DNA of 64,000 nt, taken from assembly GCA_027484575.1 (NCBI GenBank), contig JAIXSQ010000013.1:62001-126000 (forward strand), written 5' to 3'. Source of the DNA: Comamonadaceae bacterium (GTDB taxonomy: Bacteria; Pseudomonadota; Gammaproteobacteria; Burkholderiales; Burkholderiaceae_C). The translations under genes were made by a program, and so were the position numbers. Positions 38,242 to 40,989 of the stretch are shown one piece after another. Each line of letters starts with the position of its first letter. The stretch's first letter is position 1. The notes under the pieces were generated by a model, which did no database searches, had not been told where the DNA came from, and worked only from the letters and a program-made list of their open reading frames with translations.

Positions 38242-39675
38242 TCAGGCGGCGCGGCAGATCTTGAGCATGTTGGTGCCGCCGGGCGCGCCCATGGGCTCGC
38301 CGCAGGTGATGGCGTAGATGTCGCCGGTGGCCACGATGCCGCGGCGCTTGAGGTGCGCCTCCGCATCCTGCAGCGCGGTGTCGCGGTCGGCCGCATGGTC
38401 CATCAGCAGCGGCCGCACGTTGCGGTACAGCGCCATGCGGCGCTGGGTGTCCAGCCGCTGCGTGAGCGCGTAGATCGGGATGTGGATGCGGTGGCGGCTC
38501 ATCCACAGCGCGGTCGAGCCCGACTCGGTCAGCGCCACGATGGCCTTGCAGCCCAGGTGGTAGGCCGTGAACAGCGCGCCCATCGCGATCGACTGGTCGA
38601 TGCGCTGGAAGGTCTTGCCGGTGAAGTCGGCATCGAGCTGCACGTCCTCGGCCATCTCGGCCTCGGCGCAGATGTTGGCCATCTCGACCACCGTCTCCAG
38701 CGGGTACTTGCCCGCCGCGGTCTCGGCGCTGAGCATCACCGCGTCGGTGCCGTCCAGCACGGCGTTGGCCACGTCGCTGACCTCGGCGCGGGTGGGCACC
38801 GGGTTGGTGATCATGGACTCCATCATCTGCGTGGCCGTGATCACGACCCGGTCGTGCTGGCGTGCCAGCCGGATCATCTTCTTCTGCAGCGCCGGCACCG
38901 CGGCATTGCCGACCTCGACCGCCAGGTCGCCGCGGGCGACCATGATGCCGTCGCTGGCCAGCAGGATGGCCTCGAGGTTGGGGATGGCCTCGGCACGCTC
39001 GATCTTGGCGATCAGCGCCGGCTTGTGGCGCTGGTCGGAGGCCGCCACGTTGCACAGCTGGCGCGCCATTTCCATGTCGGTGGCGTTCTTGGGGAAGCTC
39101 ACCGCCACGTAGTCGGCACGGAAGCTCATCGCGGTGCGGATGTCCTCCATGTCCTTGGCCGTCAGCGCCGGGGCGGTCAGGCCGCCGCCCTGCTTGTTGA
39201 TGCCCTTGTTGTTGGACAGCTCGCCACCGAGCTTGACGGTGGTGCGCACCTGCTCGCCGTGCACCGCATCGACGGTCAGCACGATCAGGCCGTCGTTGAG
39301 CAGCAGCACGTCGCCGGGCTTCACGTCGCGCGGCAGCTCCTTGTAGTCCAGGCCGACGCCGTGGATGTCGCCCGGCTCGGCGCGCGAGGCGTCCAGCACG
39401 AACTTCGCCCCGGGCGCCAGCTGCACCTTGCCGTCGGCGAACTTGCCGACACGGATCTTGGGGCCCTGCAGGTCGGCCATGATGGCCACCTCGCGCCCGG
39501 CGCGCTGCGCGGCCTCGCGCACGAGGCGGGCGCGGTCGATGTGGTCCTGCGCCTTGCCGTGGCTGAAGTTCAGCCGCACGACGTTGACGCCGGCGCGGAT
39601 CATCTGCTCGAGCAGCTGGGGATCGGAGGAGGCGGGGCCGAGGGTGGCGACGATCTTGGTGGCGCGACGGGCCAT
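38242..39675 (-). CDS. pyk: Pyruvate kinase
   Basis: This 477-residue enzyme converts phosphoenolpyruvate and ADP to pyruvate and ATP. Motifs are ATLGPASSDPQLLEQMI, VVRLNFSHGKAQDH, IMADLQGPKIRVG, the catalytic region ALIAKIERAEAIPNLE, GIMVARGDLAVEVG and ITATQMMESMITNPVPTRAE. The C-terminal allosteric domain follows from about residue 340. The ATG at 39675 is preceded by AAGGACC and starts the conserved ARRATKIVATLG. It is divergent from the desaturase gene. Confidence 0.97.
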   Translation of the reverse strand: MARRATKIVATLGPASSDPQLLEQMIRAGVNVVRLNFSHGKAQDHIDRARLVREAAQRAGREVAIMADLQGPKIRVGKFADGKVQLAPGAKFVLDASRAEPGDIHGVGLDYKELPRDVKPGDVLLLNDGLIVLTVDAVHGEQVRTTVKLGGELSNNKGINKQGGGLTAPALTAKDMEDIRTAMSFRADYVAVSFPKNATDMEMARQLCNVAASDQRHKPALIAKIERAEAIPNLEAILLASDGIMVARGDLAVEVGNAAVPALQKKMIRLARQHDRVVITATQMMESMITNPVPTRAEVSDVANAVLDGTDAVMLSAETAAGKYPLETVVEMANICAEAEMAEDVQLDADFTGKTFQRIDQSIAMGALFTAYHLGCKAIVALTESGSTALWMSRHRIHIPIYALTQRLDTQRRMALYRNVRPLLMDHAADRDTALQDAEAHLKRRGIVATGDIYAITCGEPMGAPGGTNMLKICRAA

Positions 39676-39734
39676 GGTGGCTGGAGGTCCTTGCAACGAG
39701 ACAGCGGCCATTCTTGCACGGCGCACGGCCGCGC

Positions 39735-39776
39735 TTGATCTGGATCAGGCGGAGCGCCGGCCGCGCTGCCTAGCAT
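39735..39776 (+). promoter_or_regulatory. FNR/Anr box with class II spacing and -10 for the desaturase gene
   Basis: TTGATCTGGATCAG at 39735-39748 matches the FNR/Anr consensus TTGAT-N4-ATCAA at nine of ten positions. A TAGCAT hexamer at 39771-39776 is a plausible -10, putting the start near 39783 and the box centre at about -41.5, the classic activating position. This predicts activation of the desaturase at low oxygen. Confidence 0.65.
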
Positions 39777-39814
39777 CGGCCGGTTTCGCCCGACCCGCTG
39801 TCCCTCCCCCGCGC

Positions 39815-40900
39815 ATGACGACTCCCGACGCTCCCCGCCCCCTGCCCGCCGGCGCACCGCTGCCCCACCGCAAGACCATCCGCGCCTGGCTGGTCCCGCT
39901 CTCGGCCAAGACCACCGCCCGCGCCCTCGCGCTGCTGGCGCTGGACTGGGCGCTGCTGCTGGCGGCGCTCGCCGGCACGGTGCTGCTGGCCGCCTGGTGG
40001 GCCAAGCTGGCCTGCGGCATGGCCGCGGGGTTCGTGACGGGGCGGCTGTTCATCATCGGCCACGACGCCTGCCACCAGAGCCTGACGCCCCACCGCACGC
40101 TGAACAAGTGGATCGGCCGCATCGCCTTCCTGCCTTCGATCACGCCTTACTCGCTGTGGGACGTCGGGCACAACGTGGTGCACCACGGCTACACCAACCT
40201 CAAGGGCTTCGACTTCGTCTGGGCCCCCTGCACGCGCGAGGAGTACGCCGCGCTGACACCGCTGCAGCGCGCGCTGGACCGCGTGTACCGCAGCGGCTGG
40301 GCGCCGGGGCTGTACTACATGGTCGAGATCTGGTGGAAGCGCATGTTTTTCCCCAGCCGCGCGCAGATGCCGACGCGGCGCGCCGTGTTCCTGTGGGACA
40401 ACCTGCTGGTCAGCGCCTTCTGGGTGCTGTGGATCGGCGCGATGGCCTGGGCCGCGGTGGCCACCGGGCAGCCGGTGGCGCTGCTGCTGGCCATGGGCGT
40501 GGCCGTGCCCTTCCTGTTCTGGTGCGCCATGATCGGCTTCGTGGTCTACGTGCACCACACGCACACGGCGGTGTCGTGGCACGACGAGCGCGGCGCCTGG
40601 TCGCAGGCCCAGCCCTTCGTGTCCACGACCGTGCACCTGACGTTCCCGCTGGGCATCGGCGGCCTGCTGCACCACATCATGGAGCACACGGCGCACCACG
40701 TGGACATGGGCATCCCGCTGTACCGGCTGCAGCAGGCGCAGGCCAGGCTCGAGGAGCTGCTGCCCGGCCGCATCATCGTGCAGCGCTTCTCGTGGCGCTG
40801 GTACTTCGACACGGCGCGGCGCTGCAAGCTCTACGACTTCACGCGCCGCTGCTGGACCGACTACGCGGGCCGGGCGACCAGCACGCCGCAGGCGGCCTGA
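39815..40900 (+). CDS. Membrane fatty acid desaturase
   Basis: This 361-residue di-iron membrane protein has the three histidine boxes of acyl desaturases: HDACH (83-87), HNVVHH (119-124) and HTAHH (291-295), between four or so hydrophobic helices (residues 38-80, 195-250). It introduces a double bond into membrane acyl chains using O2 and electrons from a ferredoxin or cytochrome. The box spacing fits the delta-12/DesA-type family; regioselectivity cannot be read. No ribosome site is visible. The promoter carries an FNR-type box. Confidence 0.9.
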   Translation: MTTPDAPRPLPAGAPLPHRKTIRAWLVPLSAKTTARALALLALDWALLLAALAGTVLLAAWWAKLACGMAAGFVTGRLFIIGHDACHQSLTPHRTLNKWIGRIAFLPSITPYSLWDVGHNVVHHGYTNLKGFDFVWAPCTREEYAALTPLQRALDRVYRSGWAPGLYYMVEIWWKRMFFPSRAQMPTRRAVFLWDNLLVSAFWVLWIGAMAWAAVATGQPVALLLAMGVAVPFLFWCAMIGFVVYVHHTHTAVSWHDERGAWSQAQPFVSTTVHLTFPLGIGGLLHHIMEHTAHHVDMGIPLYRLQQAQARLEELLPGRIIVQRFSWRWYFDTARRCKLYDFTRRCWTDYAGRATSTPQAA

Positions 40901-40914
40901 GGCCGGCACGCACC

Positions 40915-40989
40915 GTCATCCCGGCGGAAGCCGGGATCCAGCGCCTTCAGGCGCAAGTCACTGGGCCCCCGGCCCGCGCCGGGGCGACG
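40915..40989 (+). repeat. Extragenic palindromic (REP-like) element, copy 3
   Basis: Left hairpin CCCGGCGGAAGCCGGG, central hairpin GCGCC-TTCA-GGCGC and right arm pair around CCCGGCCCGCGCCGGGG. It fills the gap between the convergent desaturase and pgk genes and resembles the copy at 35061 most closely (shared GTCATCCCGGCG and CAAGTCACTGGGCCCC). Confidence 0.85.

Follow-up and report, generated by a model that had tools for sequence, protein, structure and literature searches.

The window analyzed here, a stretch of 64,000 nucleotides, carries a gene for a membrane fatty-acid desaturase of 361 amino acids (39815..40900, forward strand), which begins with an ATG at 39815 and whose product matches the PF00487 profile (E 3.3e-28). 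Its divergent neighbour is the pyruvate kinase gene pyk (38242..39675, reverse strand, start codon at 39675; PF00224/PF02887). Between both genes there is an FNR/Anr-type box, TTGATCTGGATCAG, at 39735..39748 of the forward strand (centre 39741.5). A −10 element, TAGCAT, is located on the same strand at 39771..39776, 22 nt downstream of the end of the box, and the transcription start inferred from it lies at 39783. Downstream of the desaturase, a pgk-like gene, recognized by eye from its translation, is encoded on the reverse strand. In addition, the palindromic sequence GTCATCCCGGCGGAAGCCGGGATCC is found at about 40915–40945, right behind the desaturase, and resembles either a repeat of the dispersed kind or a hairpin like that of a terminator; it has no T run.

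The Desaturase and the Supply of Unsaturated Fatty Acids

The protein has three histidine clusters, HxxxH (residues 83 and 87), HxxxHH (119, 123, and 124) and HxxHH (291, 294, and 295), and these eight histidines were identical in all 87 aligned orthologues. The PF00487 profile and the three histidine boxes together define the membrane fatty-acid desaturases, and the designation of the gene as a fatty acid desaturase in the preliminary description therefore stands. The only NCBIfam model matched was that of the Delta(5) desaturase DesA (NF052548), and the score, 72.4 bits, is far below the 500 required for this family. No PDB sequence matched the desaturase at E ≤ 1.

A PF00487 family search of the source genome did not reveal a second fatty-acid desaturase, and its other hits corresponded to one CrtW-like protein, with 204 bits to CrtW, below the cut-off of 350. 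This CrtW-like carotenoid ketolase (L199, G000:C17:103242-103853) is adjoined by a CrtZ-like hydroxylase, as judged by eye, and is located about 4 kb away from a gene for a CRP-like regulator.

Orthologues of the desaturase were sought in 99 genomes, 59 of which, the source genome included, belong to the same genus, apparently of Ramlibacter type and so labelled here. An orthologue with 72–100% identity was present in 19 of the 59, and the orthologue search detected none in the other 40. The FabA family is represented in the source genome by a single protein, a FabZ, and a FabA over the cut-off was absent in 58 of the 59 genomes of the genus, several of which are incomplete; G007 alone had one (304 bits). 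The proposal that the genus depends on this desaturase alone for its unsaturated fatty acids was not upheld, given that the orthologue occurs in just 19 genomes. With 58 genomes showing no FabA over the cut-off and only those 19 provided with an orthologue, another route must exist and, since 40 genomes do without it, the desaturase is regarded as an accessory enzyme.

The Predicted Promoter Upstream of the Desaturase

The box TTGATCTGGATCAG has a single mismatch with respect to the palindromic consensus TTGATNNNNATCAA, 9 of the 10 half-site positions being in agreement, which confirms what had been claimed for it, and it was the only match with up to one mismatch in the window. In shuffled versions of the window, matches of this quality appeared 0.09 times on average, and 9 of 100 shuffles contained at least one. 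At the same stringency the whole genome contained 42 sites, whereas the reversed pattern used as a control gave 8. Of ten other boxes inspected in this genome, several sit within long reading frames. Therefore, the box taken alone is weak evidence, suggestive at most. In contrast, the pattern TTGAYNNNNRTCA-N23-TANNAT, which joins the box to the −10 element, had one match in the 4,403,135 bases of the source genome, at the desaturase site, and the control had none. The combination of box, spacing and −10 is not a matter of chance.

The transcription start was placed 7 nt past the last base of the −10 element, at 39783, and consequently the centre of the box falls at −41.5. A consensus scan of positions 39600–39900 found neither a TTGACA-like −35 box nor a sigma-70 consensus pair, as expected for an activator-dependent class II promoter. 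As far as the sequence allows, the locus thus presents the hallmarks of an FNR class II promoter, namely a TTGAT-N4-ATCAA-type box centred near −41.5 and a −10 element without a −35 box, and the start and the class II position deduced from TAGCAT in the preliminary description stand. Class II sites overlap the −35 region in part, and the site of fnr1 is given at −42 in the accessible text on Herbaspirillum seropedicae (PMC5934665). The predicted leader of the desaturase mRNA has 32 nt in the window, with no evident Shine-Dalgarno sequence.

Conservation Within the Genus and Assignment of the Box

The TTGAYNNNNRTCA box was present upstream of 17 of the 19 orthologues of the genus, being absent at L006 and L008. 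A full TANNAT followed 22 nt past the box in 15 of these 17, and the exceptions were L012 (TACGAT at 21 nt) and L018 (GACAAT at 22 nt). While the distance from the box to the −10 element hardly varies, that from the end of the box to a conserved codon ranged from 78 to 127 nt. Position 14 of the palindrome was not A in 15 of the 17 boxes.

Given that the box shares its intergenic region with pyk, and that its centre is only about 66 bp off the pyk start codon, it could belong to this gene, the proximity of the desaturase being incidental. A match to pyk was obtained in 57 of the 59 genomes of the genus, and 350 bp upstream of it were inspected on both strands at 30 loci. The box was found in six of the seven pyk loci with the desaturase and in none of the 23 without a desaturase within the fetched stretch. 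Moreover, it is kept at loci in which no pyk was detected, namely L003, L018 and 11 named loci carrying both the box and the −10 element. The neighbours at such loci include genes that, by eye, we take to be glmS-, dcd- and argD-like. Since the 23 pyk promoters that have no desaturase beside them are all devoid of the box, pyk was rejected as its target, and an assignment to this gene is extremely unlikely. In its distribution among genomes, the box accompanies the desaturase.

Conservation Beyond the Genus

The comparison was extended to 100 orthologue loci, 80 of them named and 20 from the genus (L001–L020). Removal of 11 loci whose upstream ends duplicated those of others, and of 2 with too little upstream DNA, left 87. 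A strict box was defined as TTGAY-N4-RTCA, and the module as the box plus the −10 element at a spacing of 21–23 with no more than one mismatch. The strict box appeared in 48 of the 87 upstream regions (dinucleotide shuffles: mean 0.4, largest 2, in 100 rounds) and the module in 42 (mean 0.07, largest 1, also in 100 rounds). These counts, together with the 17 of 19 boxes of the genus, answer affirmatively the question raised in the preliminary description of whether the box is conserved in relatives.

When TANNAT was counted at offsets 0–60 from the 48 boxes, it was found 3 times at 20, 6 times at 21 and 28 times at 22, and at none of the other 58 offsets. In the 33 promoters with a spacing of 22, the free middle letters of the −10 element were mostly G (76%) and C (79%), compared with a pairwise identity of only 29–33% in the spacer and flanks; the identities of the box and the −10 element in this alignment result wholly or partly from the selection of the promoters and were not counted. 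A nearly fixed spacing, recurrent −10 letters and a variable distance to the codon are the traces expected of selection on a class II promoter. A box present by chance was ruled out by the uniqueness of the module in the genome and by its nearly fixed spacing across relatives.

The module is spread over many clades, including Hydrogenophaga, Polaromonas, Macromonas and the Ramlibacter-type genus. On a FastTree phylogeny of the 87 proteins, at least 14 changes (gain or loss) were needed to explain its distribution, 12 of them forced by well-supported branches, and it was clustered on the tree, since none of 500 shuffles gave a number as low. These data support that an FNR class II promoter, as predicted from its sequence, has been kept on an oxygen-using desaturase across several genera of Burkholderiales.

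The module was missing in 45 of the 87 orthologues, among them L006, L008, many Limnohabitans-like freshwater genomes and both Burkholderia, and a relaxed box was found within 600 bp in 11 of these 45. That so many orthologues manage without the module would be compatible with a site at which FNR represses, or with a relic devoid of effect. It must be considered, however, that a centre at −41.5, the absence of a −35 box and conservation against random flanks are marks of activation, and that repression does not require such a spacing. Repression or a relic is, in consequence, very improbable, and activation is the reading followed below.

With respect to translation, the most upstream in-frame start was located within −1 to 4 nt of the predicted transcription start in 19 of the 42 promoters with the module (16 ATG and 3 TTG), and therefore many of the desaturase mRNAs may be leaderless. 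In the remaining 23 the first in-frame start lay at 11–134 nt, so that the predicted leader lengths are bimodal across the 42 promoters.

The Module at Other Genes of the Genus

As a positive control, the module pattern was searched in 60 genomes of the genus, yielding 49 matches, 15 of them at the desaturase by coordinates, compared with none for the reversed pattern. Of 29 further module loci, 28 were read, and L159, taken at a fixed offset, was assigned only by its similar −10 region. The 28 loci comprised 10 of this desaturase, 6 NorB-type nitric oxide reductases, 6 oxalyl-CoA decarboxylases and 6 others. The NorB-type loci come from six genomes of the genus (L139, L153, L155, L156, L157, and L165); one of these genes was tested and matched PF22085 (1.9e-67), and the rest were assigned by the start of the gene. 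NorB is a usual target of FNR or Dnr. The presence of the module ahead of NorB-type genes thus indicates that the pattern picks low-oxygen promoters in the genus.

The Regulator

A search for CRP-type helices in the source genome gave 11 matches, of which the eight over the cut-off were read by eye and the three weaker ones were left out. One of the eight was Lrp-like by eye and seven were of the CRP/FNR type. Only one of these seven joins Fe-S cysteines to the helix: it contains CSTCHLKDLC close to the N terminus, an EIC in its interior and KLETVSR. Its cysteines follow the pattern C-x2-C-x5-C plus one internal Cys, and its recognition helix is ETVSR. This protein aligns with the solved FNR over residues 32–253, cysteines included, and narrowly exceeds the threshold of the NCBIfam Fnr model, with 229.8 bits where 228 are required. 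The four cluster cysteines and the E-x-x-S-R helix that distinguish an FNR are therefore encoded in the genome, as judged from the protein sequence. In G035 (L018, 637–1500), an fnr homologue 55.6% identical to this FNR lies immediately upstream of the desaturase on the same strand, with the box in between.

The TTGAT-type half-site is common to FNR, Dnr and FixK, and another regulator of the family, such as a CRP-like paralogue or, in relatives, the NO-sensing Dnr, could bind the box in response to a different signal. In this sense, two paralogues of the CRP type in the source genome (L132 and L135) have a SREMVSR (ExxSR) helix and lack the N-terminal cysteines, and the NorB-type genes preceded by the same module in relatives belong to a class that can be Dnr targets. 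On the other side, a single one of the seven proteins unites the cysteines with LETVSR and has the similarity to FNR described above, and none of the seven was Dnr-like by eye. A regulator other than FNR is, accordingly, unlikely, though less so than the alternatives concerning pyk or repression, and FNR is preferred. In gonococcus, the accessible text reports two genes with an upstream box to which no FNR binding was seen by ChIP (PMC1802743), a case that advises caution against inference from boxes alone.

The survey of FNR covered 69 of the 87 loci, that is, all except 17 named loci without the module and L020. A match at E ≤ 1e-60 was obtained in all 17 genomes of the genus with the module and in both without it. 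In the named genomes, many of which are metagenome bins, it was obtained in 18 of 25 with the module vs. 19 of 25 without it. The remaining ones had three partial, one weak and three no matches among those with the module, and one partial, one weak and four no matches among those without. The idea that orthologues without the module come from FNR-free genomes was, consequently, not upheld; with such similar rates, the presence of FNR does not explain the retention of the module.

Proposed Regulation and Comparison With Known Systems

FNR is the textbook switch for anaerobic respiration. Starting from the observed box, −10 element, spacing and joint conservation, from the family of the desaturase and from the presence of one canonical FNR gene, we infer the chemistry of the cluster, the binding of FNR, the direction of the regulation and its physiological reason. 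The stretch 39735–39776 is very probably an FNR/Anr class II activator-dependent promoter of the desaturase, activated as oxygen falls, and the interpretation of the box as a class II target in the preliminary description is hence supported at the sequence level. When oxygen falls, the FNR of this bacterium would retain its [4Fe-4S] cluster and dimerise, bind the box at −41.5 and bring RNA polymerase to the promoter, which has no −35 box. More desaturase would then be made while some oxygen is left, and the extra enzyme would offset the slowing of an oxygen-dependent reaction. Compensation, understood as more enzyme when the co-substrate oxygen becomes scarce, is the best-supported reading, although a role in membrane fluidity, the other reason offered in the preliminary description, would fit the same results.

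If this is true, FNR would raise an oxygen-consuming enzyme, beyond its role in anaerobic respiration, and cultivable bacteria would be available for asking why an enzyme that uses oxygen increases as its substrate vanishes. The possible reasons include the upkeep of flux at low oxygen, a change of lipids for microoxic respiration and the removal of oxygen.

No FNR- or Anr-controlled fatty-acid desaturase was found in the literature searched, most subscription papers and supplements falling outside that search, and the comparisons that follow refer to the accessible parts of the papers cited. Desaturases induced at low oxygen are already known, those of the cyanobacterial DesF/ChlR and the yeast OLE1/Mga2 systems. 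In Synechococcus sp. PCC 7002, desF is turned on at low oxygen through ChlR, thought to be an Fe-S oxygen sensor, and mutation of desF is conditionally lethal in a microoxic environment (PMC4500134). Both cases share a desaturase gene and, by prediction in ours, its low-oxygen induction through a putative Fe-S regulator. Unlike FNR, ChlR is of the MarR type, and desF is located among genes for tetrapyrroles, with DesC as the aerobic isoform (PMC4500134). Within PF00487, the arrangement typical of DesF, a second copy beside an aerobic desaturase, does not occur here; the desaturase may work like DesF all the same. OLE1 of yeast and FAD2 of Kluyveromyces are also oxygen-dependent desaturases induced by hypoxia, under Mga2 (PMC8317464). 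Mga2 differs in being a eukaryotic membrane-bound activator freed by proteolysis, with no FNR involved (PMC8317464). The same logic is thus found in cyanobacteria and yeast through unrelated regulators, and their comparison with the bacteria studied here would be a test of convergence.

In this regard, a broader proposal is made only tentatively, and with more doubt than confidence. A single, possibly high-affinity desaturase driven by FNR, its mRNA often near-leaderless, would be the microoxic source of (poly)unsaturated lipids in a mostly FabA-less lineage, and an independently evolved proteobacterial counterpart of DesF/ChlR and OLE1/Mga2.

Among FNR systems, that of Herbaspirillum seropedicae resembles ours in being betaproteobacterial, in the box of fnr1 at about −42 and in an Fnr3 motif without a well-conserved A14, as in 15 of the 17 boxes of the genus; it differs in having three FNR paralogues, compared with the one canonical FNR found here (PMC5934665). 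The main text of that study, whose target tables are in supplements, did not contain the terms desaturase, desA, fatty acid or lipid (PMC5934665). Anr of Pseudomonas aeruginosa is an FNR homologue with influence on the unsaturated fatty acid genes fabAB, its effect on fabA being minor and probably indirect, and the accessible text does not report desA as a target (PMC3462791). Finally, FnrL of Dinoroseobacter shibae has a phytoene desaturase gene among those it activates, whose product is a carotenoid enzyme and not a fatty-acid desaturase as in our case (PMC5398030).

Other Putative Targets

Two further boxes of the source genome lie next to genes that were named by eye: L031, flanked by genes for a MoxR-like ATPase and for cytochrome c, and L043, which precedes a DUF2244/CoxB-like pair. 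Among the module loci of the genus, the six others comprise one ApbE and one iron-transport family protein, both by Pfam, and four that were named by eye or had no assignment. The oxalyl-CoA decarboxylase-like loci were L141, L145, L151, L160, L161, and L166 (and L159, by its −10 region only), and the one gene tested scored over the cut-off of TIGR03254. Judging from these promoter sequences, the oxalyl-CoA decarboxylase-like gene is a candidate for a second low-oxygen target. In several Ramlibacter-type genomes the module ahead of these genes has the −10 region TTCCTATGAT.
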